A stretch of DNA of 60,318 nucleotides from a bacterium (GTDB taxonomy: Bacteria; CG2-30-53-67), in the NCBI GenBank assembly GCA_919901565.1, contig CAKKPE010000002.1, positions 1-60,318 on the forward strand, given 5' to 3'. Within the stretch, counting starts at the first letter, position 1. Every line of letters starts with the position of its first letter. The notes beneath the pieces were generated by a model, which worked only from the letters and a program-made list of their open reading frames with translations, was not told the DNA's origin and did no database searches. Both the position numbers and the translations under genes were made by a program. Below are positions 36,128 to 60,318 of this stretch, piece by piece.

Positions 36128-36148
36128 TTGTATATCAGGGAGAAAGGG

Positions 36149-38665
36149 ATGGAAAATCCAATGGCAAAGACCAGGAGATTCTGGAAACAAAATCTCATAG
36201 TATATTTTATTTCCGTCCTCAGTTTTCTTGTCGGCTCCTGTGATAACTTTTCTCTCGGTAAGGAGAAGAAGCCTGCTTCACCCAATCTTCTCGTGATTAC
36301 TCTGGATACTACAAGGGCTGACCGGCTCGGCTGCTACGGCTATAAGTCGGCGGAAACCCCAAACTTGGATCAATTGGCGGAACAAGGGGTTCGGTTCGAT
36401 AACGCGTACTCCCAGATTCCCATCACCCTGCCATCCCACGCGACCCTCTTCACAGGCCTCTATCCGCCCGAACATGGCATACGAGACAATGGATCCGGTG
36501 TGCTTGGGGAGGACATTCCCACAGTGGCAGAGATATTCGCAGATCATGGATACAAAACAGGCGCGTTTGTTGCAGCCGCGGTTCTTGACCATATGTATGG
36601 GCTTGAGAGGGGTTTTGAGACCTACAGCGACCGAATGGAAGGGAATATTTCTCCGGATGAACAGATTGCAGAAATTCCAGCCGACCGTGTCTGTGACCGG
36701 GCACTGAACTGGCTGGAAAAGAACAAAAAAGCGCCGTTTTTTTGCTGGGTCCATTTTTATGACCCGCATACTCCTCACCGGCCGCCATCCCCCTATCTTG
36801 AGAGACACAAAGACAAATATGACGGAGAAATTGCCTTTATGGACTCCCAGATTGGCCGTCTTAAGAATTGGCTGGATTCGAATGGTCTAAGAAAAAATAC
36901 CCTTGTGATTGCGGTAGCTGACCATGGCGAATCCCTGGGAGAGCACGGCGAGAGCACCCACAGTTTTTTTATTTATGGCGCAACGATTCATGTGCCTATG
37001 ATCTTCACTGCACCCGGCTGGCTGGCCAGGGGGAAGGTTGTCAAGGCAGATGTGGGCATCGTAGATATTCTGCCAACGGTGCTGAATCTCCTGGGCTGGG
37101 AAGTCCCCAAGTCAGTAACAGGCAGAAGTTTTTTACCCGCATTTCAAGATGCAGCATTGGATTTTAGAGGGGTCTATTCTGAATCCGACTATGCGTTCAA
37201 CAATTTTGGCTGGGGGAAACTTAGAAGTCTGGTCACAGGAGAGTGGCACCTTATTCAAGCGCCTCGTTCCGAGTTGTACAATATGGTCAAGGATCCTTAT
37301 GAACTCAGGAACATATATGAAGAGGAAAAAGCCCTGGCAGTCAAGATGAATGCCGAGTTGACAGAAATTGAAAAATCCATAAAAACAAGCAAGGTAAAAA
37401 ACGTCGTGTTGGACCAAAAATCCAGGGAAGCCCTGGAATCTTTGGGCTATTTGAGCGGAGGGCGAGGAGGAGAGAACGGCCGAAGCCGGGAAAATTTAAA
37501 GGATCCCAAAGAGATGATTCATGCTTATAACCGGGTCATGGCCGGCCGGAGTTTTATTGCGGGGGGTGACACTAAACGGGGGATTAAGGAACTGGAAACG
37601 GCTCTTGATTCCGCCCGGGATTCGGCAATGATTCATTATTCCCTGGGACGGGCCTATGCATCGATCGGCGACAAGGGAAAGGCAAAACATTATTTTCAGG
37701 ATGCGTTACAGCTTCTTCCCACATACTGTGACGTCCATAATGAACTCGGACTGCTTCTGTCAGAGGAGGGGAATTATTCCGGCGCTATCGCCCATTACGA
37801 GAGTGCGCTTCGGGTTACACCCAATTACCCCATCGTCCTTCTGAACATGGCAAATGCAAAGATGGCCCTCGGAAAGATTGATGAGTCGAAAGAGATTTAC
37901 AGGAAGATCCTTGCATCGAAAGATGACTACCCCGAGGCGTATTACCAATTGGGTATTGCCTGTGCGCTGCAGGGTGATACATCCGGCGCTGTGACCGCCC
38001 TCCGCTCTGCAGTCCGGATCCGCAAGGATTATTGGCAGGCATGGAATGATCTGGGGGCACTGCTGGAGAAAGAAGGAAAGCTTCAGGAGTCTGTATCATG
38101 TTACGAAGCTGCCCTCAAGGTTAACCCTGAAAATCCTGTTCTTCTTGTGAATATGGCGAATGCGAAGATGGTCCTGGGAGATTTCAAGGCGTCGGCGGAG
38201 GTCTATCAAAAGATCCTTGAACTGAGAAAAAACGATCCAGGGGCCTATTACGGACTCGGAACGGCCTACTTGAGGCTTGGAAAACTTCCTGAAGCCGTGA
38301 CCGCGTTCCGTCAAGCTGTTGGGTTTAAAGGTGACTTCTGGCAGGCATACAATGATCTCGCCGATACGTTTTTAAAGATGGGTGAACTCGACAAAGCCCT
38401 GGATGCAGCCCGGAGGGCGGTAGAGATCATGCCGTCTCAACCCTTGGTGCATGTTACCCTTGCCGAGGTATATTCTGAAAAGCAGATGAATCAGCGTGCG
38501 AACAGGGCATTGCAGGCGGCCGTAGAAAAGGGCTTTGCAGATGCCGCTTACCTTAGGAACGATAGATATTTCAAGAGATTGCAGGGGGATCCTCAATTTC
38601 AGAGCGTGCTCGGCATCATTGAAGATAAGCAGAGAAAACCTGTTGTACCGGAAAAACAAGAATAA
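36149..38665 (+). CDS. Sulfatase-fold/TPR fusion lipoprotein
   Basis: An 838-residue lipoprotein (VLSFLVGSC lipobox). Residues about 40-430 are a sulfatase/alkaline-phosphatase superfamily domain with metal ligands in LVITLDTTRADRLGCYGY and VADHGESLGEHGE. The nucleophile region reads TLPSHATLFTG, with Thr where sulfatases have Cys or Ser and without the CxPxR maturation signature. Eight or so TPRs fill the C-terminal half. It may be a phospho- or phosphoethanolamine-type transferase or phosphodiesterase acting on surface glycans. The track start is TTG; ATG 36149 has GGGAG at ideal spacing. It is last in the wecB operon and paralogous to 48443-50725. Confidence 0.85.
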   Translation: MENPMAKTRRFWKQNLIVYFISVLSFLVGSCDNFSLGKEKKPASPNLLVITLDTTRADRLGCYGYKSAETPNLDQLAEQGVRFDNAYSQIPITLPSHATLFTGLYPPEHGIRDNGSGVLGEDIPTVAEIFADHGYKTGAFVAAAVLDHMYGLERGFETYSDRMEGNISPDEQIAEIPADRVCDRALNWLEKNKKAPFFCWVHFYDPHTPHRPPSPYLERHKDKYDGEIAFMDSQIGRLKNWLDSNGLRKNTLVIAVADHGESLGEHGESTHSFFIYGATIHVPMIFTAPGWLARGKVVKADVGIVDILPTVLNLLGWEVPKSVTGRSFLPAFQDAALDFRGVYSESDYAFNNFGWGKLRSLVTGEWHLIQAPRSELYNMVKDPYELRNIYEEEKALAVKMNAELTEIEKSIKTSKVKNVVLDQKSREALESLGYLSGGRGGENGRSRENLKDPKEMIHAYNRVMAGRSFIAGGDTKRGIKELETALDSARDSAMIHYSLGRAYASIGDKGKAKHYFQDALQLLPTYCDVHNELGLLLSEEGNYSGAIAHYESALRVTPNYPIVLLNMANAKMALGKIDESKEIYRKILASKDDYPEAYYQLGIACALQGDTSGAVTALRSAVRIRKDYWQAWNDLGALLEKEGKLQESVSCYEAALKVNPENPVLLVNMANAKMVLGDFKASAEVYQKILELRKNDPGAYYGLGTAYLRLGKLPEAVTAFRQAVGFKGDFWQAYNDLADTFLKMGELDKALDAARRAVEIMPSQPLVHVTLAEVYSEKQMNQRANRALQAAVEKGFADAAYLRNDRYFKRLQGDPQFQSVLGIIEDKQRKPVVPEKQE

Positions 38666-38765
38666 TTTTCTACTCTTTTGTTACTCCATCACGCTTCCGA
38701 ATTGAGCATGATTCAATACATCGTCCAGGAGCAAGCACAACTCAAAAGGCCGTTGGCGCCGGCTC

Positions 38766-40238
38766 TTAAAGATATCCCAACGACTTGAGCTTCTCTCTGG
38801 TTTCCGGGGATATATCGCGTCTGTGATCAGGAGGGGCCGGGAGGGCATGTGCGTTTTGCATAATCTGGACTAAGAGTTGGCTGAAGTGATCTATGACAGA
38901 AGGATTCTCGTCTGCAATATTGCTCTTTTCATCGGGATCGTTCTTGATATTGAAAAGCTCGAACTGGTTCAATTCACCCAAATCGGCATTCCGCTTTATT
39001 TTTTTTGGGTCGGGAATGTAGATGAATTTGTAGACCCCGTCCCTTAGAGACTTCCTTTCCGGGCCAAACTCGGTCTCTTCACTCAATGCCAGTCGTTCGG
39101 GCCGGTTTTCACCGTGCATCAACGGAAGGAGCGATTCGCCATCCACGTGAGGCCCGTCTTCAATGCCCAGCAAATCCAGGATCGTGGGGAAAATATCTAT
39201 GCTCCGGGCCTGTGAGGCAATGACCTTTTTGGGAAAACGGAATCCTGGCGCCCGAATAATGAGCGGTATCTTGATCAGGTTATCATACAGCGAGTGACCA
39301 TGGTCTGCGCTTCTTTCCGGGTAGTGCTCCCAAAATTCTTCCCCATGGTCACTGGTTAAGATAACAATCGTCCTGCGGCCTAACTGCATGGAATCAAGGT
39401 CATGCAGGAGTTTACCCACATAGGCATCGGTGAATCGAATGTCTCCGTCATAAAGAGCTGTAATATACTTCTTTTCCTGCTCGGTGGGAGTCAAGCTCTT
39501 ATCCCGGAGGCGGAACAAGGCCTCTACGGTAAATTTTGGTCCGATTCGTACGGACTGTTCATCGCCGAGAAATTCCCTGTGTGTGTACGGCACATGCGGT
39601 TCATAAGTATGAAAGAACAAGAAGAAGGGGCGTGGATCCTTCTTTGTTTGGCGCTCCTTTAACCATCCTCGGGATCCCTGGTATATTTTTTCCAGGTCAT
39701 GATCCTCTGCCTGATCGGTGAGTATATCGGCCCAGTTGCCTGCTTCGAAGAATGTATCGAATCCTTTAGAGAAACCGAAGTCTTTTGAAATGTATCCCCC
39801 GCCGGTAAAGGCCGCTGTTTCATATCCATGACTGCTTAGCACTTCTGCCAGCATAGTGACCTCTCCCCTGGCAAAAGAGTTCTGGATTGCCGAAGAATTC
39901 TTGCCGGTCAACATGGAGACATGAGCCGGGAGGGTCCAGGAGGAAGAGCTCAATCCATTGAGAAAAAGCGCCCCTGATGAGGCCATCTGATCTATATTGG
40001 GAGTGGTCTGTCTTTGATAACCATAACAGCTCATATGATCCGGGCGCAGCGTGTCCAATGAGATAAGGATCACATTATACGGCTCCCGATTCGAACACCC
40101 GGACAGCAAGGAGAGCAGTAGAAGGATGCAAAGGCAGGGCACACCTGTCCCGGAGATCCAGGATAGGAAAATGGGGCTCCTGAGTTTCCAATGCCGGCTC
40201 TTAAGAAAAATCCTATGCGAATTAAGTGGTTCGAGCAT
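38766..40238 (-). CDS. Sulfatase-fold lipoprotein
   Basis: A 490-residue protein with a long N-terminus, a lipoprotein signal (CILLLLSLLSGC) and a complete sulfatase/alkaline-phosphatase superfamily domain: VILISLDTLRPDHMSCYGY, ILTSDHGEEFWEHYPER, DHGHSLYDNLIKIPLI. The nucleophile site is WTLPAHVSMLTG, again Thr instead of Cys/Ser. It ends shortly after ETREKLKSLGYL and has no TPR. It is second in a two-gene operon with the 40262-41617 paralogue (23-bp gap). It is convergent with the wecB operon. Confidence 0.85.
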   Translation of the reverse strand: MLEPLNSHRIFLKSRHWKLRSPIFLSWISGTGVPCLCILLLLSLLSGCSNREPYNVILISLDTLRPDHMSCYGYQRQTTPNIDQMASSGALFLNGLSSSSWTLPAHVSMLTGKNSSAIQNSFARGEVTMLAEVLSSHGYETAAFTGGGYISKDFGFSKGFDTFFEAGNWADILTDQAEDHDLEKIYQGSRGWLKERQTKKDPRPFFLFFHTYEPHVPYTHREFLGDEQSVRIGPKFTVEALFRLRDKSLTPTEQEKKYITALYDGDIRFTDAYVGKLLHDLDSMQLGRRTIVILTSDHGEEFWEHYPERSADHGHSLYDNLIKIPLIIRAPGFRFPKKVIASQARSIDIFPTILDLLGIEDGPHVDGESLLPLMHGENRPERLALSEETEFGPERKSLRDGVYKFIYIPDPKKIKRNADLGELNQFELFNIKNDPDEKSNIADENPSVIDHFSQLLVQIMQNAHALPAPPDHRRDISPETREKLKSLGYL

Positions 40239-40261
40239 GATACGCAGGAATTCCGCAAATA

Positions 40262-41617
40262 CTATTGAACATATCCCAAGGATCGCAGAGTGTTCATGGT
40301 GTCGGTGTCATAATCGGCCCGCTCCTCCTTGGATCCATACTGCTTTCTCCATTTCTGAAGAACTTTTTCCAGCCGTCCTGCCTCCTGGAACTGCTCTCTT
40401 GAGAGCGGGTGCGCTTCTGCAGGGTCTGTCAGAAGATTAAAATAGAGGTAGCTGTTTGTGCGCACATTGTAAATCGCCTTTTCGCTCTTTGTTCTGGCGC
40501 TGACAAACCATCTCCCGGTCATATATCCTTGGACACGATTAATCTCACTAAACGCGATCTCTTTGATCGGTCTTTTTCCGTTCAACTGTTTCAAAAAACT
40601 CTTCCCCGTTACTTTATAATCGAATGGTATGTCCAGCATTTCCATGAGTGTCGGAGCGAGGTCGATCATCTCCACCAATCCGGAATATCGAGATCCACTC
40701 CGTTTGACTCCGCCGGACACGATCAGCGGGACGTGTATCAGCTCGTCAAAGACGGACTGACCGTGCGTGACACCTCCATGTTCCATAAACTCGTCACCGT
40801 GATCAGCGGTGAAAACAATTATAGAGTTTTGGAAGACGCCGGCAGTCTTGAGACCTTGGATCAAGCGGCCGAACTGCTCGTCAAAATAGGCAATACCTCC
40901 ATCATACAAATCGATCAGGTGGTCCAAATCTTCTCCTGACAAATATAAAGGCTTTCTCTCTTTCATCCTTTGCATGTAAGTGACCATTATACCGTTGACC
41001 GGCCCTTCGTATTTCTTGCCGTATTCTCTATTGTAGGGCGGAGGCGGCCAGTACGGGTCATGAACATCCATGAAATGCAGATAAAGAAAGAAAGGCTTAT
41101 TTCGATTTCTGGCGCCAACCCATTGCAGAGCGGCATCGACGAGCAAGGGAGCTCTCAACCACTTTGGACGGGCGTCTTCATTGAGTAGTAAATTGTAGGA
41201 ATCAAATCCCTTATCATACCCAAGGGATCGTTTTAACAGGGGATTTGTCACAAACGCCCCTGTTTGAAAATTATTTTCCCGCAGTCGCTGGGCAAGAGTT
41301 CTGTCTCCTTCTTTTATGCCCATATTGCTGCTCATAGCAGGGTAGTTTGAAGTAAACATGGCCGCTATTGCAGGCGCAGTCCATCCACTCTGGCTGATTG
41401 CATTATCGAGAACCATCGCCGTTGAAGCAAATTCATTAATGTGAGGGGAGGTGTTTCTCTTATAGCCATAGACTCCAAGATGGTCCGGCCTCAGTGCATC
41501 AACCAGAACTATTATAAGGTTTTCCGGAGGATGATCCGCAGCATTTTTATTGCCGCAGCCGCACATGCAATTTATTGAAAATGCAAAAAAATAAAGCATA
41601 AAGAGGCAGATTCTCAT
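40262..41617 (-). CDS. Sulfatase-fold lipoprotein
   Basis: A 451-residue protein with a short lipoprotein signal (lipobox NCMCGC) and a sulfatase/alkaline-phosphatase domain: LIIVLVDALRPDHLGVYGY, FTADHGDEFMEHGG, HGQSVFDELIHVPLI. The nucleophile site is GWTAPAIAAMFTS: the Thr-x-Pro is kept but the following His/Arg is replaced by Ile, the most divergent of the four paralogues here. First gene of the operon with 38766-40238. A 25-bp fragment of repeat family B lies 16 bp upstream of its start. Confidence 0.85.
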   Translation of the reverse strand: MRICLFMLYFFAFSINCMCGCGNKNAADHPPENLIIVLVDALRPDHLGVYGYKRNTSPHINEFASTAMVLDNAISQSGWTAPAIAAMFTSNYPAMSSNMGIKEGDRTLAQRLRENNFQTGAFVTNPLLKRSLGYDKGFDSYNLLLNEDARPKWLRAPLLVDAALQWVGARNRNKPFFLYLHFMDVHDPYWPPPPYNREYGKKYEGPVNGIMVTYMQRMKERKPLYLSGEDLDHLIDLYDGGIAYFDEQFGRLIQGLKTAGVFQNSIIVFTADHGDEFMEHGGVTHGQSVFDELIHVPLIVSGGVKRSGSRYSGLVEMIDLAPTLMEMLDIPFDYKVTGKSFLKQLNGKRPIKEIAFSEINRVQGYMTGRWFVSARTKSEKAIYNVRTNSYLYFNLLTDPAEAHPLSREQFQEAGRLEKVLQKWRKQYGSKEERADYDTDTMNTLRSLGYVQ

Positions 41618-41796: not shown

Positions 41797-41863
41797 TAGG
41801 AAAAGTTCCAAAAGTTTTCCCAAATGTGGAAAAAGTTTTCATAAAAAGGGAAAAGTTTTTCAT
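41797..41863 (+). promoter_or_regulatory. Three palindromic boxes, putative enhancer-binding-protein sites
   Basis: Boxes around CCAAAAGTTTTCCC, GTGGAAAAAGTTTTCAT (41826-41842) and AGGGAAAAGTTTTTCAT (41847-41863) repeat with a 21-bp period, two helical turns. They end about 120 bp upstream of a sigma-54 promoter, the usual position for an activator of the NtrC class. Similar arrays precede 44227 and 58905. Confidence 0.7.
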
Positions 41864-41982
41864 ACATTAGGACTTTCGAATGAGTGAATAAGCTTGAAAT
41901 TTTATTAAACAATTTTTAAAAATATTTTATATTACAAGGTGTTGTAATTTTCTGATAAAAAAAACCGCTGTCTTACAAGGAT

Positions 41983-41998
41983 TGGCACAAAAAATGCT
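41983..41998 (+). promoter_or_regulatory. Sigma-54 (-24/-12) promoter
   Basis: TTGGCAC followed by AAAAA and ATGCT: perfect -24 element, GG and GC separated by exactly 10 bp, one mismatch in the -12 element (ATGC for TTGC). The start point would be near 42009, giving a leader of about 200 nt before ATG 42210. Confidence 0.8.
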
Positions 41999-42209
41999 TA
42001 TGTATAATCGTAGATTTGAGCCGATGGGACAAAAAAGTTTAGGGGAATTACCAAAAACAATGATCTCGTTTCTGTTTTGCTTGTAGTATGGTAACGAGTC
42101 AATCGGAAGGATTCCCTATAAGGAAGGGGGTGGTAGTTCAAGAATCGACGAAGATTTAAAGTAGTGTAGTGTAGTCAATTTAATACATCATAATTTAAGG
42201 AGTGAACAA

Positions 42210-42939: not shown

Positions 42940-42975
42940 ATCATGCGGATCATGAAACTTAACGGAGAATCAATC

Positions 42976-43833
42976 ATGTGGAAATCCATTGTTTTGCTAT
43001 GGGTCATTCTCAGCTCGATGTCGCTCAATGGGTGCGTGGGGCTGAACACCTTCCCCAAGTCCGCTCGAGCGGGCGACACCATCACGATCGGTGTGGGAAA
43101 CGCCTACCTGCACGGCGGAGAAACCGAGAACATGACGCGTACGAATACCATGGTTATGATTTACGACGGGGGCTCGATCAACTACAGCCTGACCCCGAGG
43201 GCAACCCTGAATCTTTTTCCGGATTCCCGCAGCAAGCTCGTGAACTATAATCTCTGGATGACCACACCGAGCCTCGACGGCAGGCCCTATGAAACCGTTA
43301 TGGTTGTGGATCTTCCCACGGATATCCCCGTAGGCTCCTATACCGTAGAGGTGGTCTCCTCTGTGGCGGGACTGGTCCAACCGTACATATCCAACCTTAA
43401 TATCGTGGGGACAGGCGGTTCACCTGATAGTTTTCTCGATGAATTCGGTCTCGCGGAGAATGTCAAAGAGCTGGAGACCGCTCCCTTTTCTGAAGTGACG
43501 CTTTCCTCATCAGCCGTCCCGGTGGGCGCAGTGCAGTTGGATATCGGATTCGACAATACGATTGTTTCATCCAGTAATATTCGTGTTGTACAGGCTCAGT
43601 TTGACCGGGTGGAAAAACAGAACAATCTATTCTGGCGTGTTGAGCCGGGCATTATTCATGTCTACATCCTTTCACCGGAAGGGGTTTCACAGACGAAATA
43701 CCTGAAGCTCTATCTGGTCAGACCGCAGGGTTCAGGTGATCCTTTATTTAATGTCCTGCCGGGGGCCAAGATCGTGGACGTCGATGGAAACCCGATCTCC
43801 GGTATGACGGCAAGCATAACGAGCATGAATTAA
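42976..43833 (+). CDS. Lipoprotein of unknown function
   Basis: A 285-residue protein with a lipoprotein signal (SIVLLWVILSSMSLNGC). I do not recognise the family. It reads as mostly beta-strand, with an N-terminal part (SARAGDTITIGVGNAYLHGG) and a C-terminal part (VPVGAVQLDIGFDNTIVSSS) that is faintly cohesin-like. The frame opens at ATG 42943, inside the spacer after a strong terminator; ATG 42976 with GGAG is a better start. No promoter of its own was found in the 36 bp after the terminator, so it may be expressed by read-through. Confidence 0.75.
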   Translation: MWKSIVLLWVILSSMSLNGCVGLNTFPKSARAGDTITIGVGNAYLHGGETENMTRTNTMVMIYDGGSINYSLTPRATLNLFPDSRSKLVNYNLWMTTPSLDGRPYETVMVVDLPTDIPVGSYTVEVVSSVAGLVQPYISNLNIVGTGGSPDSFLDEFGLAENVKELETAPFSEVTLSSSAVPVGAVQLDIGFDNTIVSSSNIRVVQAQFDRVEKQNNLFWRVEPGIIHVYILSPEGVSQTKYLKLYLVRPQGSGDPLFNVLPGAKIVDVDGNPISGMTASITSMN

Positions 43834-43946: not shown

Positions 43947-44004
43947 GTGAAATCTTTTTCACAAAAGTGGAAAAACATTTCCTATTTTAGGTAAAACATT
44001 TCCC
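43947..44004 (+). promoter_or_regulatory. Three palindromic boxes, putative enhancer-binding-protein sites
   Basis: GTGAAATCTTTTTCAC (arms GTGAAA/TTTCAC), GTGGAAAAACATTTCC and AGGTAAAACATTTCCC start at about 43947, 43967 and 43988, a 20-21 bp period. They end about 120 bp upstream of the sigma-54 promoter, the same spacing as at 42210. Confidence 0.7.
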
Positions 44005-44122: not shown

Positions 44123-44138
44123 TGGCATCTTTTTTGCT
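44123..44138 (+). promoter_or_regulatory. Sigma-54 (-24/-12) promoter
   Basis: TTGGCAT, five bases, then TTGCT: perfect -12 element, GG-N10-GC spacing, one mismatch in the -24 element (T for the final C). The start point would be near 44149. Confidence 0.83.
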
Positions 44139-44226: not shown

Positions 44227-46551
44227 ATGAAAAAGTATTCGTATGCCGGTTTGGTGTTGTTACTGGTTTTTTGCCTTCGTTCAAGTGCAATGTCGGCGGC
44301 ATTGCCTTCAGGAACCTTATTGACCATTGATAACGGGTTCGAAGGGGCCGCCTCCTACTTCACCATGGCGGTTTCAAGTACTACGATTCTTACTACCTAT
44401 CTCAAATCTACCACCACCACCGGCGTCCAGCATCCAAAGTGCTTGAATGGCGGTATCCTTCTCGGGACGAACCAACCCGCAGGAACCGGGAGCCATACGG
44501 GTACGACGGTTCCCGCCGACAATGGTCCCATTGACGCGCCGTGGAATTTCTTCTTTAATACAGGCAATGATTTCCAGGATTTGGCCGCGGGCGGCGTGAC
44601 CGACAACGGCAACGGCACCCTGAATATGGTCGGCTGGAGAGTCTCCTGGAACGGGATCCCATCCATTAACATGGGCATGGGCGGCGGGGCGAACATCTTC
44701 ACAAAGAGCCTTGACGGGACACATTATACCCTGGATTATATGACTACCGTACCTCCGGGTGATCCCTCCGGATTCGGCGGTGTCCCCTATGGTCTGCATC
44801 TGGAAGGAAGGATCGTTGTGGTGGATCTATGCGCTGACAACCATTGTACCGACAGCAATGCCTGTACGGTTGATCTTTGTGACAGCGGAACCGGAGCCTG
44901 TACCAATACACTGGACTGCACGCTTCCCGGTTGTAACAGTACCGTAGATCCCCGCTGTGACCTCTGCAATGGGGTGGTCTGTGATGACGGCAATGCCTGC
45001 AACGGCGTAGAGACCTGCGACTCCAATACCGGCGGGTGCATTGCAGGGACCCCGCTGAACTGCGACGACCAGAACATTTGCACGGACGACACCTGCAATC
45101 CGGCGGCCGGGTGTGTGAACGCCCCGGGTTCTGCCAATTGCCCCTCAGGGAATGTATGGGTTACGCCTGCTACCGGCGGAGAAATACGATTCTACGACTG
45201 GGGTTATACCGGCCCCGGAAAGGACGGATGTGCGGAGGGAGATCCCGGATGCACGGACTGGAGGAGGGCCTTGGAGTTCAACCCGATAAGCGGATTCGGA
45301 GGCCCTGCAGAAGGGAATGCCCTTGACCCGGCCGGCGGCATCGGACAGCGGCAGCACGTGATAACCCAGGATCAGGACTGGCTGACCCCGGATCCGGCCC
45401 ACAACATTGTTGGTGATTTTGATGGCGGCGAGAATTTCCCCAATGCGAATATGGATGCAAACGTCAATTTCTACAAGTGGGGCTATACCACGGTTGCGGG
45501 GTCTGCCTTCAATAACATGATGATTGACTATGACGGCGACTATCTGATTCCGAAAGGGGACATGCATTTCGTGTTCTACGATATTTTCCGGTACAAGGAT
45601 ATGACCGGCGCCAATCCGGACCAAACCTTTGATACCCGTATCAATTTCCAGCCTTTCCCGATCTCCGATGCCATCGGCTGGTGCGGATCAGTCTTGACCA
45701 GTCATCCTGCGGCTCTGGAACCCATGGCCGGCCAGGTGACCTTCGATTTTGCCTTTGAGGCATACTTCCCCTTTACGGATCTGGGACCCAACGGGCTGCC
45801 TGATCCGGGTGAAGGTTCCGTCCAGATTGTTCCAGGATTCATCATGCGAAGCTACGGTACCCTGGAAGTTGATGTCAAGGAGTCTCAGGGTGGCGCCGGT
45901 AATCTGCATTTTGTAGCCAATGCGGTCATTAATAATACCAATCCGACCCTGGGAAGGGACGCGTCTCATCCCTACGGCTATCCGGACCCTGCCTATTACA
46001 ATCACGTATCCTTTATGGGCGGGGGCGTGGTTCCAGGCGGAGTGTGGGTCTATCCGGATGGTATAGGCACGCACGATGTCCGGGTACATCCGGTTCAGGG
46101 AGCGCCTGGGACAACGCCCGGAGAGGTCCGTGCCGATGGCGCCGTATGGCACATGAACAGCTTTGCCGGTTATCCGTTTATGCTTCGTGCCGATGCGATT
46201 CGCTACGTGGAGTATTTTGATGCCGCCCGCTACGGCGCTGACACGGATGATGATGCAGTGCCGGATACCCAGGATAACTGTATTCAGGCGGCAAATGGGC
46301 CCAAAACGCCGGACGCAGGCGGTAATGTGCAGCGTGATACCGACAGTGACGGGTACGGCAACCGCTGCGATGCGGACCTGAACGGAGACGGTATCACCAA
46401 CTCCCTGGATTTAGGTCTGTTCAAACTGGTTTTTATGGGCAGCGATGCGAATTCGGACCTGAACGGAGACGGCATTGTCAATTCCCTGGATCTGGGGATC
46501 GTTAAAAATCTCTTCATGCTGCCTCCTGGGCCATCGGGAGTTGCGCCATAA
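44227..46551 (+). CDS. Large secreted protein: paralogue domain + Cys-rich region + dockerin
   Basis: A 774-residue exported protein. The signal peptide (SYAGLVLLLVFCLRSSAMSA) leads into the local paralogue domain (GTLLTIDNGFEGAASYFTMAV ... VPPGDPSGFGGVPYGLH). A Cys-rich segment of repeated CxxxxC pairs follows (ACTVDLCDSGTGAC, NICTDDTCNPAAGC), then a domain of about 350 residues I do not recognise, a thrombospondin type 3 motif (DTDDDAVPDTQDNC), and a canonical dockerin (DLNGDGITNSLDLGLFK and DLNGDGIVNSLDLGIVK). No PEP-CTERM tail. It heads a presumed operon with two cohesin-like genes. Start ATG 44227 rather than the upstream open frame. Confidence 0.85.
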   Translation: MKKYSYAGLVLLLVFCLRSSAMSAALPSGTLLTIDNGFEGAASYFTMAVSSTTILTTYLKSTTTTGVQHPKCLNGGILLGTNQPAGTGSHTGTTVPADNGPIDAPWNFFFNTGNDFQDLAAGGVTDNGNGTLNMVGWRVSWNGIPSINMGMGGGANIFTKSLDGTHYTLDYMTTVPPGDPSGFGGVPYGLHLEGRIVVVDLCADNHCTDSNACTVDLCDSGTGACTNTLDCTLPGCNSTVDPRCDLCNGVVCDDGNACNGVETCDSNTGGCIAGTPLNCDDQNICTDDTCNPAAGCVNAPGSANCPSGNVWVTPATGGEIRFYDWGYTGPGKDGCAEGDPGCTDWRRALEFNPISGFGGPAEGNALDPAGGIGQRQHVITQDQDWLTPDPAHNIVGDFDGGENFPNANMDANVNFYKWGYTTVAGSAFNNMMIDYDGDYLIPKGDMHFVFYDIFRYKDMTGANPDQTFDTRINFQPFPISDAIGWCGSVLTSHPAALEPMAGQVTFDFAFEAYFPFTDLGPNGLPDPGEGSVQIVPGFIMRSYGTLEVDVKESQGGAGNLHFVANAVINNTNPTLGRDASHPYGYPDPAYYNHVSFMGGGVVPGGVWVYPDGIGTHDVRVHPVQGAPGTTPGEVRADGAVWHMNSFAGYPFMLRADAIRYVEYFDAARYGADTDDDAVPDTQDNCIQAANGPKTPDAGGNVQRDTDSDGYGNRCDADLNGDGITNSLDLGLFKLVFMGSDANSDLNGDGIVNSLDLGIVKNLFMLPPGPSGVAP

Positions 46552-48442: not shown

Positions 48443-50725
48443 TCATGGTTCTTTGATCATTTTGTGAAACTTTTTATCACCTGAGATGCTTTTCAAATCG
48501 TCATCGGTCTTTGCTATTTGCCGGTATTTCTCGCCCCCGAGTCTAATTGCCTGACCAAGGCTGTTAAGAGCATCCTGCGTATTGCCCAGCCGGGATTTCA
48601 CGCAGGCGTAATTATACCACGCGTCCGCATTTCCTGCGTCGAGTTTCAGCGAATCCGTGAGGCTTTTCTGCGCCATGTCAAGCGCATCTTTTTTAAGATA
48701 GGCCACACCAAGGATCATTTTCGCCTGAGCGGAATCCGGGTGAGTTGCTATGCCTTTTTTCAGCTCTTCAATGGCCTGGTCAACGAGATTCAGTTGGAGC
48801 AGGCAGGCGGCCAGCTTGAATCGGACTTCTGAGAGTGAAGGGTCGATCTCCAGCACTTTTTTCAGATGAAGGGCCGCTTCGTCAAACCGGGACTGGCGCA
48901 TCAATTCCGTTGCCAGGAAATTCCGGTACAAGGAGTTCTCCGGATCCAGATCAACGGCTTTTTTCACCAAGCCTTCCGCTGCGGCGAGCTCTCCCAGCTT
49001 CTGCTTGACGATTCCCAGAGAATAATAGGCATCGGCTTTCTTGGGAAGGAGCTTGATGACTTCAGACGTCTCCAGGTCCGCATTTTTCATATCACCCTTT
49101 CGGAAGTAAGCCGTTGCAAGATAAATGTGAACATAGCTGAAATCCGGCCTTCTCTTCTTCAGTGTCTCGAGTATTTCAATACTTTCGTCTAGGCGGCCCA
49201 GTTCAAGTAAAGCCTGCGCTTTGAGGAGTTGTACATTCAAGTTGTCCGGATCGAGTTGCAGCGCTTTCTGAACGTGCAGGAACGCCTCTTCGTAGTCTGA
49301 AATCGCAATATAACCCTGTGCCAGACCGTTCTCTTCGATGAAGTCTTTCATCTCTTTTGGATCCGTTCCGGTCGGGTCAAAACTCAACTTTGACAAGGGT
49401 TCCGCCTTCCCAGCTCCGGCAATATATCCAAGGCTTTCGAGTCGGCTTCGCGTCTCCGGGTCTATATTTTTTGCGGGGCTCTCTTTAGATGCATTCTGAA
49501 TTGAGCGTTTAAAGACCTGCTTGAGGCGCTCTTTCATTGCCGAGGCTGTTGCCGGTTCTTCCTTGATGAGATTTCTTGTTTCAGAAGGGTCATCTGTCAT
49601 CCTGTACAGCTCCGGTTTCGGGGCGTTGATAAACTTCCATTCCTTCGACCGGAGCGAGCGGAGAGCGCTCCATCCGTGCTGGACATGGCCTGGCATCGCC
49701 TCACCATAGGATTCAAGGCCGAGATCATCTGAGCCGGATGACAGCATGGGGATCAGGCTCACGCCCTGGATATGATCGGGGATTTTGAAGCCCAGAAAAT
49801 CGAGAGTGGTAGGGAGAATGTCAATGGACCGTACAATCCCATGCACACGGCGCTCGCGGGGCAGGACCGCCGGCGCAGAAAAGATAAGGGGGATGTGTAA
49901 AGTGGATTCGTAGACAAAGTAGCTATGATTTGCCTCGCCATGCTCTTGGAGACCTTCCCCGTGGTCAGCGGTCAGGATAATGAGGGTCTTTTTATCCATG
50001 CCTGACTCTTTTAAAGTTGAGAAGATCCGGCCCAAACACTCGTCCGTGAATGCGACCTCACCGTCATACGGTGTTTGAGCATATTCATCTTTATATGGAG
50101 ACGGAGGGCTGTAGGAAAAATGCGGGTCAAAAAAATGCAGCCACAGGAAAAATTTCCTGGACTGGTTTTTCCTGAGCCATTCTATGGCCGCCTCTGTGGT
50201 CTTATCGCCTTGACGTTCAAGCAAAGGTTTTACTTTCGGCTCTCCAGGAGAATTAAACTTATCATCATAGGAGTCAAATCCCTGGTCCAAACCAAACTGG
50301 CGGTCCAGCACAAAGGTGGAAACGATGGCCCCTGTGGTGTAACCATGATCCTTGAGTATTTCTGCCATGGTTATCTGTGAATCCCGGACGTAAAACACCC
50401 CGTTGTCCATAATTCCATGATACGGAGGGAGCGTGCCGGTCATGATTGAAGTATGGGAGGGAAGTGTCACCGGCGCCTGCGACTCTGCATGCTCAAAGAG
50501 CACCCCGCGATTCGCCAGGGCATCAATATTTGGAGTTTTCACCTCCCTTGACCCGTAGCAGGCAAGATGGTCGGCTCTCAATGTATCTATGGTAATGAGT
50601 AATATGTTATAGTCCATGCCGGGGGCCGGTTTTTTCCCAGTGCACCCCGCAAAGAACAGAGCGCTTAAGAGAGCGGCGGCAATTTGGAGTATTTTAAGTA
50701 ATCGGTTGAATGGGTTTGAAAACAT
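48443..50725 (-). CDS. Sulfatase-fold/TPR fusion lipoprotein
   Basis: A 760-residue lipoprotein (ALLSALFFAGC lipobox). The sulfatase/alkaline-phosphatase domain has ILLITIDTLRADHLACYG, VTLPSHTSIMTG (Thr at the nucleophile position) and LTADHGEGLQEHGEANHSY. A linker ending SRLESLGYIAG leads to about eight TPRs. The architecture equals that of 36149-38665. It starts 16 bp after the stop of a TMTC-like glycosyltransferase gene, so the two are a probable operon. ATG 50725 with AAAGGAT is preferred over the longer frame. Likely substrates are membrane or surface glycans; true sulfatase activity is doubtful. Confidence 0.85.
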   Translation of the reverse strand: MFSNPFNRLLKILQIAAALLSALFFAGCTGKKPAPGMDYNILLITIDTLRADHLACYGSREVKTPNIDALANRGVLFEHAESQAPVTLPSHTSIMTGTLPPYHGIMDNGVFYVRDSQITMAEILKDHGYTTGAIVSTFVLDRQFGLDQGFDSYDDKFNSPGEPKVKPLLERQGDKTTEAAIEWLRKNQSRKFFLWLHFFDPHFSYSPPSPYKDEYAQTPYDGEVAFTDECLGRIFSTLKESGMDKKTLIILTADHGEGLQEHGEANHSYFVYESTLHIPLIFSAPAVLPRERRVHGIVRSIDILPTTLDFLGFKIPDHIQGVSLIPMLSSGSDDLGLESYGEAMPGHVQHGWSALRSLRSKEWKFINAPKPELYRMTDDPSETRNLIKEEPATASAMKERLKQVFKRSIQNASKESPAKNIDPETRSRLESLGYIAGAGKAEPLSKLSFDPTGTDPKEMKDFIEENGLAQGYIAISDYEEAFLHVQKALQLDPDNLNVQLLKAQALLELGRLDESIEILETLKKRRPDFSYVHIYLATAYFRKGDMKNADLETSEVIKLLPKKADAYYSLGIVKQKLGELAAAEGLVKKAVDLDPENSLYRNFLATELMRQSRFDEAALHLKKVLEIDPSLSEVRFKLAACLLQLNLVDQAIEELKKGIATHPDSAQAKMILGVAYLKKDALDMAQKSLTDSLKLDAGNADAWYNYACVKSRLGNTQDALNSLGQAIRLGGEKYRQIAKTDDDLKSISGDKKFHKMIKEP

Positions 50726-50741
50726 CGTTTTGATCCTTTCT

Positions 50742-52718
50742 TTACTTTTTTTTCTGCTGACCGGATAGGGACGCCATCCGATTGACAATTTCCTTGAAAT
50801 CGGGACGGGCCCTCAGGGCTTTCAAGTCCGGATCCTCATTCAGGATGCGCGCATCACCCATCCCTTTTTCCAGGGCATCCCGGAGCCGGTCTATGGCCTC
50901 TTCAGGTTTTCCATTTGTTGCATAAAAGCACGCAAGGTTGTATGACAGCAGGTAGTCATCCGGGGAGGCCGTGATGGCCTTGAGGTAAAGATCCTCTGTT
51001 TTCCATTTCTCGCCGAGGTTAGAGTAAGCCAGAGTGATCAAGAGCAGGGCATTAGCATGGGCCGGTTCGAGTCGGAGTGTCGCCTCGAGGGCTTCGACGG
51101 CCTCCCCGGCACGCTTTGTATGGGTGTAAAAGACAGCAAGATTGTATCTGATTTCCGCATTCTCCGGATCAAGCTCTACTGCTTTCTTTAACTGGATTAA
51201 TGCCTCATCCAGGTGGCCCTGCTCTTTATAAACCGATGCCAAATCGCTCCTTAGCGTGCCGTCTTCGGGTACCAACCTCACGGCCTCTTCCAGGTGTGTG
51301 ACTGCTTTCTCCAATTTGCCCAGTTTCATGCAAGCAAACCCAAGATTGCTTCTCGCTTCAACATATGTGGGATCGAGTTCAACACTCTTTGAGAGCTCCC
51401 GTTCCGCCTCCTGAAATCTTTCTTTTCTCATGTAGATTTCACCGAGACCGCCATGGGCTTTTCCGTTATTGGGCGCTTTGGCTACGGTATCCAACCAGAG
51501 GATCAGGCCATTTTCCCAAACTCTGTTTCGATTATAGAGAACCAGACCAAGGACCCCTATCAGGAGAGATACGGTTACTGCAGCAACAATCCTATGGGTT
51601 TGAGAATTTTTCCGGATTCTCTCGAAATATACGACAAGATGAGAAATGAGCCCCGCGACGGCCACCATGGGGAAATAGAGGTAGCGGTCGTTCATTAAAG
51701 TCACAATGGGAATTATTTGAGAGACCGGAAGTAAAGCAATGAAATAGAACCCGATCCAGAAAGATGCCCAGGACCTCTTCCGGTACAGCCGGAAGAAGAT
51801 CAGACCGATCGCTCCGATGACCATGACTGCCGGCAGCACAGCCGGAGAGAAAAAGGTGGTCTGAATGGGCGGATCGTAGAGGGCTGAGAGACGAACCGGA
51901 AAGAGAATCATGCGCAGGTATTGGAGATGAATGGTCAGGACGGTCAGAAAGGTCGCAAAGGGTCCGCCGCCATAGAACTCCCGAATGCCTCCACCCTTCT
52001 GTTGTGTAAGGACCGCCACGACCGCTATCGCACCAGCCGCCACAATAAACGGCGCCGGATACGCGAGGATTTCCCGGAACCTTCGCTTCGGGCGATCTTC
52101 AATCAGATGGTAGAGCAGGAGGATGGGGGGAAGGATGACTGCTACGGATTTTGTCAAAAGGGCTGCCCCGAAGAGGGTCAGACTTCCCGCATAGGCAGAG
52201 CGGCGATGGGTCTCGAGGAATCTCAGATAGAACAAAAACGAGGCAAGGAAAAAGGACATGGACAATATGTTTTTCCGCTGGGAGATCCAGGCCACGGATT
52301 CCACCTGTACCGGGTGTATCGAGAAGATCAGGGCGCCGATGAACGAGGCAGGTCGGTTGCGGCAGAACCTGAATAAAAGGAAAAAAACGAGCAGGGCGTT
52401 CAGGATGTGCAGTAACAGATTGGTGAGGTGAAATCCCATAGGATTTAATCCCCAGATCCTGTAGTCGATCATATAGGAGAGCATCTGGACCGGGGCGTAA
52501 TTTCCCACGAATTGTTCCGTGAAGATGCCGGCCAGGTGTTTCCATGTGAACCCGCGAATAAGGAGATTTTCCGTTACATACTTGGTATCGTCCCAATTCT
52601 GAAGAAACTCGTGGGAAAGCGTATTCAGATAGACGAGAAAAGTCAGTATCGTGAGAACCGCGAGCCAAACCCAGGAGGTCTTTTTTTCAAAAATTTGTTT
52701 TTCTACCTGTGAATGCAT
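50742..52718 (-). CDS. TMTC-like membrane mannosyltransferase with C-terminal TPRs
   Basis: A 658-residue protein with about ten helices followed by TPRs from about residue 420. The first loop carries the acidic pair in NWDDTKYVTENLLIRG; NYAPVQMLSYMIDYRIWGLNPMGFHLTNLLLH and IHPVQVESVAWISQRKNILS align in order with eukaryotic TMTC1-4 O-mannosyltransferases, which use dolichyl-phosphate-mannose. Bacterial members are widespread but uncharacterised. It is cotranscribed with a sulfatase-fold/TPR lipoprotein downstream. A copy of a 69-bp direct repeat lies upstream. Confidence 0.8.
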   Translation of the reverse strand: MHSQVEKQIFEKKTSWVWLAVLTILTFLVYLNTLSHEFLQNWDDTKYVTENLLIRGFTWKHLAGIFTEQFVGNYAPVQMLSYMIDYRIWGLNPMGFHLTNLLLHILNALLVFFLLFRFCRNRPASFIGALIFSIHPVQVESVAWISQRKNILSMSFFLASFLFYLRFLETHRRSAYAGSLTLFGAALLTKSVAVILPPILLLYHLIEDRPKRRFREILAYPAPFIVAAGAIAVVAVLTQQKGGGIREFYGGGPFATFLTVLTIHLQYLRMILFPVRLSALYDPPIQTTFFSPAVLPAVMVIGAIGLIFFRLYRKRSWASFWIGFYFIALLPVSQIIPIVTLMNDRYLYFPMVAVAGLISHLVVYFERIRKNSQTHRIVAAVTVSLLIGVLGLVLYNRNRVWENGLILWLDTVAKAPNNGKAHGGLGEIYMRKERFQEAERELSKSVELDPTYVEARSNLGFACMKLGKLEKAVTHLEEAVRLVPEDGTLRSDLASVYKEQGHLDEALIQLKKAVELDPENAEIRYNLAVFYTHTKRAGEAVEALEATLRLEPAHANALLLITLAYSNLGEKWKTEDLYLKAITASPDDYLLSYNLACFYATNGKPEEAIDRLRDALEKGMGDARILNEDPDLKALRARPDFKEIVNRMASLSGQQKKK

Positions 52719-53029
52719 GGATTGTCTCGTCTCAATAAATGAGGATTAGACTATTGCCTGATACTCAGTCTTGACTGCCCTGCATGCGGCACTCGGACGT
52801 CTGAGGAAAAGCCTGTACGAATGGGGAAATCATACCAATATAGCGGTTCCCGATTTTTATTTTCAACGTCAAGTATAAGGAAAAAATCAAAAAAAAGCTA
52901 CGACAATTTGGATGTTGCTGCTCTATTCCGTCATGCCGCCGTTTCCTACGTCATGACCGCTGTGCCCTGATCGCCAGACTCTAACTCGGACCAATAACTC
53001 TTCTGCCCAAGTCGAAAGAGAAGAAAAGT
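52719..53029. other. 311-bp intergenic region with direct-repeat copy
   Basis: Upstream of the TMTC-like gene and downstream of the GT39-like gene. It contains direct-repeat copy 1 (52841-52909) and otherwise nothing recognisable. Confidence 0.6.
52841..52909. repeat. 69-bp direct repeat, copy 1
   Basis: Matches 54657-54725 with three mismatches; the last 51 bp (from ATTTTCAACGTCAAGTATAA) are identical. The two copies are in the same orientation and bracket the GT39-like gene. Confidence 0.9.
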
Positions 53030-54652
53030 TTACGGTTTCGGTCCAGGTAGAATCTTTGATCGGTGCCTGTATGAGGGCTGTAAAATCTTCTCAGTTATAA
53101 AAATATAATACTTCTCATCTTCCACAATTCCAGGAGGAATGTATTTGAGCAAGTCAATTCTTACGTCATCGCTGAGCATTGCGTGTTCAAGATTAAATGT
53201 TTGACCGTTCTGAACGTATGTCGACTGGTTATCGAGAACCACCAATACCTTCTTCTCTCCTTTTTCCATAAACTTCAATACACCTGAAAATATATCCATC
53301 AGCTTCAAATCACTATTTCTTTTATTGTCCCATATAACAAATGAGCCGAGACTTTTTCTTTCGGGATAATAAATCGGCCTATTTAGATAGGATGACAAAG
53401 GGGAAATAACAAAATCAGTTGAACCTACGATGGATAGATTATCCAACCCATTTTCAATGATATACCGCGCAGCTTCTTTGCTTGTACTGAATTTTAGCCT
53501 GAAATCTTTTGAGAAAGCGGTAATACCTCCTGCAGCGCTTACTGCAAGCACGATGACCAGAAATATATTTTCTGACATTTTTCCAAAACCGGACATCATC
53601 CTCAGTAATGTATTCTTAATATTTGCTTCCTTGCAATAACGAGCTATCCAGAATGAAATAATGAGTACAAGATAGAAATGACCGTAGTAGCGTGCGTGAA
53701 CAAGAAGCGTCCAGTAGAATAGAAATCCAAATGCAGCAGTGCACCCCGCGTAAAAAAGCAGCGCAAGCGGCTTCCGGATAAAAATGCATATGCAGATCGA
53801 CAGAATTATTATTGGGATTACAGGATTAAGTGCATTCTGATTACTCGTGAAGACATTGGTGTTCCAGAAATGCATTCCTTTTAAATCAGGAATGGGAAAA
53901 TAGGATGAAAATAATTTCCATGAAATAAGGTAAAACCGGTTTTTGTCAAAGCCCTCCGACCAGGAAACGGGGAACGAATTGCCCGGTTTGGGATACAACT
54001 GCCATAATGAAAGAATGATACCTGCCATGAAAATAACTGCCGGCAATGTAAGTTTTACAATAGAAATATTCCTATATGACTTTTCTTTAATAATGGTTAT
54101 GAAAATAATTCCTGCTAACCCTGATGACAAAATGAGCCCATAAACAGTGGTGTTTGCAAGGAGCAGCAGAAGAAGAGATATAAAAAGTAAGTTTGAATTT
54201 CGTTTAGGGAATAGAACACAGATAAGAAATGCGATCAGCACGCCCAAACCGTAGCCTCTGCTGATGAGAGCATATTCGTATAAAACGAAATAGCTTAGAA
54301 CAAAAAGAATTTTTACAGAGAGAGAAAAAGGCGCGTAGCGACAGAACAAAAAGACATAAGAAACAGCAATGATGACGTGAAAAATCTGCATGGCGACCGG
54401 CTTGGATGTAAACGATGAGATAACATAGAGGCATAAATGCCAGAGTGCGGGATTGCCCTCGTATTTGAGGTTTTGAAAAAGTCCTGAAATAGAGTGTGCA
54501 TCTCTTGCAACTAACCATGCCTGGTGCTCATCACGCCACATTTCGTGATGAAGAATCCCTATGAGTATAAGCAGGAAATACCCGGCAGTTATTGCATAAG
54601 CAATTGCAGGATTATCAGCTTTCTGAATGTTTTTCTTTCTCTTTCCTTTCAT
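53030..54652 (-). CDS. GT39-like integral membrane glycosyltransferase
   Basis: A 540-residue protein with about ten helices and a soluble C-terminal part. HHEMWRDEHQAWLVARD in the first extracytoplasmic loop is the WRDE-type motif also present in 34499-36127. RYYGHFYLVLIISFWIARYC and NAHxPLI-like helices follow. Codon use is AT-rich compared with most neighbours. Starts at ATG 54652; ATG 54676 and an upstream frame lie inside the direct repeat. The gene is bracketed by 69-bp direct repeats, suggesting separate acquisition. Sugar and acceptor unknown. Confidence 0.7.
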   Translation of the reverse strand: MKGKRKKNIQKADNPAIAYAITAGYFLLILIGILHHEMWRDEHQAWLVARDAHSISGLFQNLKYEGNPALWHLCLYVISSFTSKPVAMQIFHVIIAVSYVFLFCRYAPFSLSVKILFVLSYFVLYEYALISRGYGLGVLIAFLICVLFPKRNSNLLFISLLLLLLANTTVYGLILSSGLAGIIFITIIKEKSYRNISIVKLTLPAVIFMAGIILSLWQLYPKPGNSFPVSWSEGFDKNRFYLISWKLFSSYFPIPDLKGMHFWNTNVFTSNQNALNPVIPIIILSICICIFIRKPLALLFYAGCTAAFGFLFYWTLLVHARYYGHFYLVLIISFWIARYCKEANIKNTLLRMMSGFGKMSENIFLVIVLAVSAAGGITAFSKDFRLKFSTSKEAARYIIENGLDNLSIVGSTDFVISPLSSYLNRPIYYPERKSLGSFVIWDNKRNSDLKLMDIFSGVLKFMEKGEKKVLVVLDNQSTYVQNGQTFNLEHAMLSDDVRIDLLKYIPPGIVEDEKYYIFITEKILQPSYRHRSKILPGPKP

Positions 54653-54656
54653 AGCA

Positions 54657-54725
54657 TAGCAGTTCCCGGTTTTCATTTTCAACGTCAAGTATAAGGAAAA
54701 AATCAAAAAAAAGCTACGACAATTT
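54657..54725. repeat. 69-bp direct repeat, copy 2
   Basis: Second copy of the 52841-52909 repeat. It ends four bases before ATG 54652 on the minus strand, so it forms the whole proximal 5' region of that gene. Confidence 0.9.
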
Positions 54726-58812: not shown

Positions 58813-58828
58813 TGGCATGAAGGTTGCA
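58813..58828 (+). promoter_or_regulatory. Sigma-54 (-24/-12) promoter
   Basis: CTGGCAT, five bases, then TTGCA, with GG-N10-GC spacing. The -12 element is perfect; the -24 element has one mismatch. The start point would be near 58840, giving a leader of about 65 nt. Confidence 0.83.
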
Positions 58829-58904: not shown

Positions 58905-60318
58905 ATGAAGAAGAAGATATTTCGCTTGTCAATGTCTATGCTGTCTATGCTCACGTCTTTTTTCTTATTGCTTGGTCTGAATTCAAGCGCCGTGGCCGCC
59001 TCCCTTCCGAACGGAACCCTCTTGACCATTGATAACGGGTTTGAAGGGGCGAGTTCTTACTTCACCATGGCGGTTACAAGTACTACTATTCTTACTACCC
59101 AGATCAGATCCACTACCGCGACCGGAACTCAGCATGCCAAGTCCACGATGGGCGGTATCCTTCTCGGGACGCCCCAGGCGGCAGGGAGCGGGAGCCATAT
59201 CGGGACCACGACTTCGGCCGACTCGAACTCTATTGATGCGCCCTGGAATTTCTTCTTTAATACAGGCGAACACTTCCAGAGCGCTGCGGGCATCACGGAC
59301 AACGGCGACGGCACCTTGAACATGGCCGGCTGGAATGTGTCCTGGAACGGGATTCCTGCGATTAACATGGGGAGCGGTCCGGCCGGCGTCTTTAATAAAA
59401 GCGCAGACGGTACCCATTATTCCCTGGATTATTATGCAACCGTGCCTCTGGGCGATCCCTCGAGTTTCGGCGGCGTTCCCTACGGTCTGCACATCCAAGG
59501 GAGGATCGTACTTCCTGCTTGCACGGATAGTGATGGAGACGGATACGGGACCTCGGATAACCCCAGTTGCGCTCAGACTGGAATAGACTGTGATGACGGC
59601 AACATAGCGATCAACCCCGGGGCCACTGAGGTGTGCGACGGTGTTGACAATAACTGCGCAGGCGGTATAGACGAAGGCGTGACGAATGCCTGCGGCACCT
59701 GCGAACCTGTGCCGGTCGAGATCTGCGACAACGTTGACAATGACGGAGATGGTCAGACGGATGAAAATCTGATTCAAGACACTACCTGCGGTGTGGGGCA
59801 ATGTGCCGGCAATACCGGGACCAAGACCTGTACAGCCGGGGTCTGGGGCCCAGATACCTGCGATCCGCTGGCCGGGGCCACTCCCGAGGTATGTTACAAC
59901 GGAGACGAAGACTGCGATGGGCAAACCGATGAGGGCGGTGTCTGTGCTGGTCAAGCGTGTCCGGATCAAGATAATGATACTTTTGCAAACTGTGTAGAGG
60001 GGTGTGTTCTGAGTCCTGGCGATAACTGCGATGGCGACTGCAATGACGGCAACATAGCGATCAACCCCGGGGCCACTGAGGTGTGCGACGGTGTTGACAA
60101 TAACTGCGCAGGCGGTATAGACGAAGGCGTGACGAATGCCTGCGGCACCTGCGAACCTGTGCCGCCGGAGGTGTGCGACGGTGTTGACAATGATTGCGAC
60201 GGCCAGATAGACGAGGGATTGAAGAACGCCTGCGGTGCCTGCGGACCTGTGCCGCAGGAAGTTTGCGACGGTGTTGACAATGATTGCGACGGCCAGATAG
60301 ACGAGGGATTGAAGAACG
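58905..60318 (+). CDS. Secreted paralogue-domain protein with MopE-type repeats (partial, runs off window)
   Basis: At least 471 codons, open to the window end. Signal peptide (MLTSFFLLLGLNSSAVAA), then the local paralogue domain (GTLLTIDNGFEGASSYFTMAV, IDAPWNFFFNTGEHFQ, SWNGIPAINMGSG, VPLGDPSSFGGVPYGLH) to about residue 205. The rest is Cys/Asp-rich repeats of 30 residues such as EVCDGVDNDCDGQIDEG, matching the putative metal-binding (MopE) motif; MopE binds copper in Methylococcus. Whether it ends in a PEP-CTERM tail or dockerin cannot be seen. AGGAGGAG precedes ATG 58905. Confidence 0.88.
   Translation, partial: MKKKIFRLSMSMLSMLTSFFLLLGLNSSAVAASLPNGTLLTIDNGFEGASSYFTMAVTSTTILTTQIRSTTATGTQHAKSTMGGILLGTPQAAGSGSHIGTTTSADSNSIDAPWNFFFNTGEHFQSAAGITDNGDGTLNMAGWNVSWNGIPAINMGSGPAGVFNKSADGTHYSLDYYATVPLGDPSSFGGVPYGLHIQGRIVLPACTDSDGDGYGTSDNPSCAQTGIDCDDGNIAINPGATEVCDGVDNNCAGGIDEGVTNACGTCEPVPVEICDNVDNDGDGQTDENLIQDTTCGVGQCAGNTGTKTCTAGVWGPDTCDPLAGATPEVCYNGDEDCDGQTDEGGVCAGQACPDQDNDTFANCVEGCVLSPGDNCDGDCNDGNIAINPGATEVCDGVDNNCAGGIDEGVTNACGTCEPVPPEVCDGVDNDCDGQIDEGLKNACGACGPVPQEVCDGVDNDCDGQIDEGLKN
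59593..59714 (+). repeat. 122-bp exact coding repeat, copy 1
   Basis: Identical base for base to 60043-60164, 450 bp (150 codons) downstream in the same reading frame. It encodes one MopE-type unit and its flanks. Confidence 0.92.
60043..60318 (+). repeat. 122-bp repeat copy 2 followed by 90-bp tandem units
   Basis: Copy 2 of the exact repeat (60043-60164) runs into tandem 90-bp units; GTGTTGACAA recurs at 60091, 60181 and 60271. The last two units are nearly identical, and the array continues past the window end. The same 90-bp spacing is seen at 59641 and 59731. Confidence 0.9.

Follow-up and report, generated by a model that had tools for sequence, protein, structure and literature searches.

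A PEP-CTERM protein gene (PF07589, TIGR02595; 42210..42869, + strand) lies in the window, i.e. the whole stretch of 60,318 nt analysed here, behind a row of short palindromic boxes and a sigma-54 promoter. This arrangement poses a double question: which protein reads the boxes, and is the layout a hallmark of PEP-CTERM genes, as the sequence-only reading of this DNA suggested when it put forward PrsR as a possible binder? All the genomes used are drafts, several of them labelled MAG; that of the window (G000) comprises 2.96 Mb in 160 contigs and is 97% complete.

Box arrays and sigma-54 promoters in the window

The sequence at 41799-41862, GGAAAAGTTCCAAAAGTTTTCCCAAATGTGGAAAAAGTTTTCATAAAAAGGGAAAAGTTTTTCA, contains the array upstream of the 42210 gene (array A), with 12-bp cores (GAAA-N4-TTTC) starting at 41808 (degenerate, 2 mismatches), 41829 and 41850, i.e. 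with a period of 21 bp. Its boxes are A1 (41807..41820, +; the degenerate copy TCCAAAAGTTTTCC), with an additional half box GGAAAAGTTCC beside it at 41799-41809, A2 (41828..41841, +; GGAAAAAGTTTTCA) and A3 (41849..41862, +; GGAAAAGTTTTTCA). The sigma-54 promoter TGGCACAAAAAATGCT, with exact GG-N10-GC spacing, is located 121 bp past the array (41983..41998, +), and transcription from it would be expected to start near 42009. The sequence-only reading had placed palindromes of this period about 120 bp before an element with exact GG-N10-GC spacing, and its coordinates were right. The palindrome that it described is also real, but its consensus, AAAAGTTTTC, is better replaced by the 14-bp palindrome [GT]GAAA-N4-TTTC[AC].

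The same plan had been noted before the genes at 44227 and 58905, and three boxes plus a sigma-54 site are indeed present at each. Array B consists of B1 (43948..43961, core from 43949, +; TGAAATCTTTTTCA), B2 (43969..43982, core from 43970, +; GGAAAAACATTTCC) and B3 (43990..44003, core from 43991, +; GGTAAAACATTTCC), with the promoter TGGCATCTTTTTTGCT at 44123..44138 (+) before the 44227 gene. Array C comprises C1 (58559..58572, core from 58560, +; TGAAAAAATTTACC), C2 (58580..58593, core from 58581, +; GGAAATGTTTTTCA) and C3 (58601..58614, core from 58602, +; GGAAAAAATTTTCA), and its promoter TGGCATGAAGGTTGCA (58813..58828, +) lies 199 bp further on. Over the three window arrays the distance to the sigma-54 site is 119-199 bp, and the sites are strong, matching the test pattern TGGCAC-N5-TTGCW with exact GG-N10-GC spacing.

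The 44227 gene (44227..46551, +), which likely starts there rather than at the ORF start 44149, encodes a protein that is paralogous to the 42210 product and contains thrombospondin-3 and dockerin regions; the two proteins are 63% identical over 196 aa and have a common N-terminal domain. The third member of this N-terminal family, whose gene is cut by the window end (58905..60318, +), carries metal-binding repeats that are MopE-like. Since the three genes share this domain, their promoters alone do not count as three independent observations. The MopE-like repeats are of the CDGVDNDCDGQIDEG type, and part of the same gene reads N in L040.

Several features of the neighbourhood are recorded here in passing. 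Between 44227 and 47698, the protein matching dockerin (PF00404) comes before one that matches cohesin weakly (PF00963, E 4e-4, below cut-off) and a PEP-CTERM protein that looks similar, so that a surface-anchored cohesin-dockerin pair is possible. The gene after 42210 (42943-43833) is lipoprotein-like and distantly similar (22%, E 4e-9) to the gene that comes first after the C25 array (L031:3674-4723). The flanks of the PEP-CTERM cluster (36128-41617 and 48443-58199) hold several genes that we name, from reading translations only, sulfatase-like with TPR and mannosyltransferase-like membrane proteins with TPR.

Sigma-54-like hexamer pairs alone are not significant in the window (25 vs 25.6 expected), and the sigma-54 consensus was rejected as evidence on its own because its count is at chance level. 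Tandem box pairs (<=3 mismatches), by comparison, number 7 against 0.70 +/- 0.80 in 100 dinucleotide shuffles of the window, among which the largest count was 3 and none reached 7. The combination of box array and sigma-54 site is significant, unlike the sigma-54 pair alone.

The leader before 42210 had been called unusually long. Its length of ~200 nt is real but unremarkable, as the distance from sigma-54 motif to start codon is up to 221 nt in other bacteria (PMC1569441) and the folding of the leader is ordinary (z = -0.37). An Rfam search of the leader matched no family and gave nothing credible; given this result and the ordinary folding, a riboswitch or structured leader was dropped.

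Distribution of the arrays in the genome and in related genomes

The search of the whole genome for box pairs near sigma-54 sites, proposed as a check by the sequence-only reading, yielded 32 core pairs at 21 bp in G000 (<=2 mismatches) against 6 in a reversed-pattern control, and 21 against 0 at <=1 mismatch. The 32 pairs fall at 19 places, 18 of which were counted as arrays, a list that is a lower bound because such genome-wide counts are pattern searches rather than a full weight-matrix scan; an array-like match in C62, without a sigma-54 site, was set aside. A sigma-54 site is found downstream in 16 of the 18 arrays, mostly at ~100-200 bp, the exceptions being those of C158 (before a regulator gene) and C24. 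The rpoN gene, whose presence was to be checked as well, is encoded in G000 (PF04552 at G000:C41:10662-11135, E 5e-60).

The six members of the family that were analysed, belonging to three genera, have 10-21 pairs each and 0 in the control, and two class-mates from another family (G006 and G007) gave no arrays in the same pair scan. When the spacing of exact pairs was left free between 14 and 44 bp in the six genomes, 38 of 48 pairs were spaced by 21 bp and 5 by 42 bp, with 0-1 per genome in the control; therefore, the arrays are a genuine element with fixed helical phasing. Sigma-54 sites scoring >=5.5 lie within 60-280 bp of 48 of the 58 arrays in these genomes (mean 1.75 and maximum 5 in 60 shuffles), and at the strictest score 20 arrays are linked, against 0 in shuffles. 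The repeated boxes are real and mark ~18 sites in G000, nearly all of them just upstream of sigma-54 promoters whose genes relate to slime, biofilm or signalling.

Genes behind the arrays

In G000, the PEP-CTERM targets are the 42210 gene and genes on C37 and C29, and the window adds the paralogues at 44227 and 58905. Other arrays precede genes for an exopolysaccharide sugar-phosphate transferase fused to a nucleotidyl transferase (C35), an ECF sigma factor (C70), a STAS protein (C127), a GAF-GGDEF-HD-GYP protein (C29 at 16.6 kb), cyclophilin-type proteins (C107, by Pfam; C9, named from sequence only), a subtilase (C42), a DUF5658 protein (C30) and a lipoprotein-like protein (C25). The C98 target is a protein of ~212 aa (L038:2278-2913) with no match to Pfam or NCBIfam; it stands behind an array in all six genomes (G000-G005) and is the most conserved target besides the regulator described below. 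The ECF sigma, STAS, GGDEF/HD-GYP and DUF5658 targets recur in several of the six genomes, across genera. Since two targets are regulators and one is a GGDEF/HD-GYP protein, the set points to a regulatory hierarchy more than to a mere switch of one operon.

Does the layout then define PEP-CTERM genes? Such genes are over-represented among the targets; with 2,800 genes assumed for G000, a rough hypergeometric estimate gives P of about 1e-3 to 3e-5. However, only ~4 of 29 credible PEP-CTERM genes in G000 carry the layout, three with an array and one (C17) with a single box and a sigma-54 site, and most array targets are not PEP-CTERM. For this reason the layout is not a PEP-CTERM signature, despite the enrichment.

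Two arrays are of separate interest. At 4977 on the minus strand of L029 (G000:C22), an array and a sigma-54 site are followed by no ORF >=60 aa within 450 bp, and repeated CGGGGGATCAG-like elements lie downstream; this may be a non-coding transcript or a repeat array. In L030 (G000:C24), three boxes without a sigma-54 site (5059-5112) adjoin a TetR-type gene, which may mean that the box is also used in another way or that a promoter has decayed there.

A regulator of the exopolysaccharide locus as the candidate binder

The C158 array (3982-4035, with a fourth box near 4057), which has no sigma-54 site, sits between a histidine kinase gene and the gene of an NtrC-type regulator (G000:C158:4230-5693), the kinase gene being directly upstream. 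The genes after the regulator are those of an exopolysaccharide (EPS) locus: XrtA polysaccharide export, chain-length, tyrosine kinase, ATPase, sugar-nucleotide, NusG, EpsI and exosortase EpsH. The regulator has a receiver domain (PF00072), a sigma-54 AAA+ domain with an ERGAFTGA loop (PF00158) and a Fis-type HTH (PF02954), an architecture that fits NtrC-type (group I) bEBPs. It is single-copy in all six box-bearing genomes, with 75-90% identity to the G000 copy and a nearly identical HTH, and was not found in the box-less class-mates G006 and G007 (cut E 1e-130); as the six genomes are one family, this co-occurrence amounts to one or two evolutionary events. An array is present upstream of the regulator gene in 6/6 genomes. 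Between array and gene, a TG-N-TAnnnT-like extended -10 can be recognised by eye in every one of them, and only the G001 array has a sigma-54 site nearby, the other five self-arrays having none. Autoregulation is suggested by the position of the array, which precedes the regulator gene and its sigma-70-like promoter.

One additional piece of evidence comes from beyond the phylum. Homologues of the regulator with 45-57% identity are encoded in Myxococcota, Acidobacteriota and Nitrospirota, and for many of them the EPS surroundings are the same. A box with >=9/10 positions is found upstream of 16 of 27 homologues against 9.2% expected in shuffles, although the homologues are related, so that the counts are less independent than they look and the P value is optimistic. 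In one Myxococcales MAG, a perfect pair spaced by 21 bp lies 184-205 bp ahead of the homologue gene, and several Myxococcota homologues have two boxes ~40 bp apart upstream. The L130 genome, labelled Deltaproteobacteria and placed in Myxococcota by the tree tool, contains six arrays (0 in the control), two of them near-identical repeats, with a candidate sigma-54 site 95-110 bp from all six; its regulator homologue has no array before its own gene. Among 37 genomes with bEBP homologues scanned at <=2 mismatches, most had 0-3 pairs, and many genomes, mostly GC-rich ones, showed no clear arrays. These pairs were not counted, many being GC-rich and coding-like by their letters, with 21 bp equal to seven codons.

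Taken from the locus and its relatives, these observations indicate that the boxes are probably read by the regulator from the EPS gene cluster and not, as first guessed, by PrsR. A regulator gene can of course be a target without being the binder, and G000 has 47 TIGR02915-type matches, so another of these ~47 candidate bEBPs might bind the boxes and hold the EPS-locus regulator under the same control. We regard this as unlikely: this one bEBP keeps the array beside it in all six genomes, which span three genera, boxes recur before the Myxococcota homologues though the intergenic DNA otherwise differs, and none of the other listed bEBP matches in G000 directly adjoins an array.

A very improbable reading is that PrsR binds the boxes, the layout then being an instance of the PrsK/PrsR/sigma-54 control already known for PEP-CTERM genes. 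In its favour, the targets include PEP-CTERM genes that have sigma-54 promoters, and PrsR exceeds its cut-off in G002-G005, all box-bearing. Nevertheless, when prsR and prsK were looked for in G000, the genome richest in boxes, neither exceeded its cut-off (PrsR, TIGR02915, best 435.3 vs 502.6 bits; PrsK, TIGR02916, best 111 vs 300 bits); in G001, PrsK is over the cut-off and PrsR is not. Conversely, G006 and G007 have PrsR yet no boxes: in G006, candidate sigma-54 sites occur at 9/9 PEP-CTERM genes, some of them coinciding with the assigned start codon or lying shortly after it, where start calls are uncertain, and boxes at 0/9. PrsR forms a separate, fully supported clade in a tree that has some long-branch rows of unsure placement and was used only for PrsR versus the EPS-locus regulator, and its recognition helix reads SRxTLHxxLxKY against SYKALLYKIKEN in the latter. 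The reported PrsR motif, a 17-mer ending in TTTACA at 32-92 nt (about 63) from the sigma-54 site (Haft 2006, PMC1569441), also differs from our boxes (GAAA-N4-TTTC, 95-200 bp) in both motif and spacing. A guessed PrsR motif, TGTAAA-N5-TTTACA, gave no consistent signal in the relatives.

That the boxes are AT-rich or architectural DNA or sites of a non-bEBP regulator, functionally unlinked to the sigma-54 promoters, is hardly credible, for although they are AT-rich and the C24 array adjoins its TetR-type gene without such a promoter, their spacing is fixed at 21 bp with controls near 0 and their sigma-54 linkage is ~27 times the shuffled rate.

Proposed mechanism

We consider it quite likely that the EPS-locus NtrC-type regulator binds the arrays and drives a sigma-54 matrix regulon. 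Boxes, sigma-54 sites, targets, locus context and the co-occurrence with the regulator are read from sequence, and the mechanism past this co-occurrence (binding, phosphorylation, activation, autoregulation and physiology) is modelled on the known biology of NtrC-type proteins. The boxes would act as upstream activating sequences, the tandem 21-bp spacing placing them two helical turns apart on one face of the DNA. The histidine kinase encoded directly upstream would phosphorylate the regulator, which would then oligomerise cooperatively on an array, contact sigma-54 RNA polymerase ~100-200 bp away by looping and open the promoter at the expense of ATP. The predicted output is extracellular matrix, comprising some PEP-CTERM and related surface proteins, the sugar-phosphate transferase, and secreted folding and protease enzymes. 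The GGDEF/HD-GYP protein, the ECF sigma factor and the STAS protein would form a control tier, and the regulator may feed back on its own gene through its array.

A wider possibility, which we hold tentatively and do not quite favour, is that an ancient EPS-locus bEBP with its own GGAAA-N4-TTTCC box is the master matrix regulator in several phyla (this one and Myxococcota at the least), with feedback on itself and a second tier of ECF sigma factor, STAS protein and c-di-GMP enzyme, that it replaces or parallels PrsR over PEP-CTERM genes, and that it may equal EpsI/Nla24 of Myxococcus.

Comparison with known systems

Haft et al. (2006) noted that the PrsR motif is missing from many PEP-CTERM genes, both within Proteobacteria and elsewhere, and that there must be other regulators (PMC1569441). 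The present data offer a concrete candidate for such non-PrsR control in an uncultured phylum and in relatives of Myxococcota: the DNA motif is defined, and a particular regulator and kinase can be named along with a list of targets. The question of how exosortase substrates and exopolysaccharide are controlled outside PrsR thereby becomes a direct binding test.

In Desulfovibrio vulgaris, too, comparative genomics has assigned response-regulator bEBPs to operons for EPS and biofilm (the DVU0110 and DVUA0057 sigma-54 regulons, PMC4641369). These belong to another phylum, and the main text of that paper does not mention a GGAAA motif; with partial coverage of the literature, the absence of our motif from papers argues only weakly for its novelty. 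EpsI/Nla24 of Myxococcus xanthus binds c-di-GMP (PMC4877007), and no DNA binding site for it was found in the main text of that paper. It may be the counterpart of the EPS-locus regulator, homologues of which were found in EPS loci of Myxococcota MAGs.

The closest point of reference is the PrsK-PrsR regulon of PEP-CTERM genes (PMC1569441; Aquincola pepA, PMC9850573). Both systems have sigma-54 promoters with upstream activator motifs at PEP-CTERM genes, and an NtrC-type response regulator with a kinase and a link to EPS. They differ in the motif, here GGAAA-N4-TTTCC in 21-bp tandem at 95-200 bp, there the TTTACA-ending 17-mer at about 63 nt, and in the proteins and genes involved: the kinase and regulator are others here, and most targets lie outside the PEP-CTERM class.
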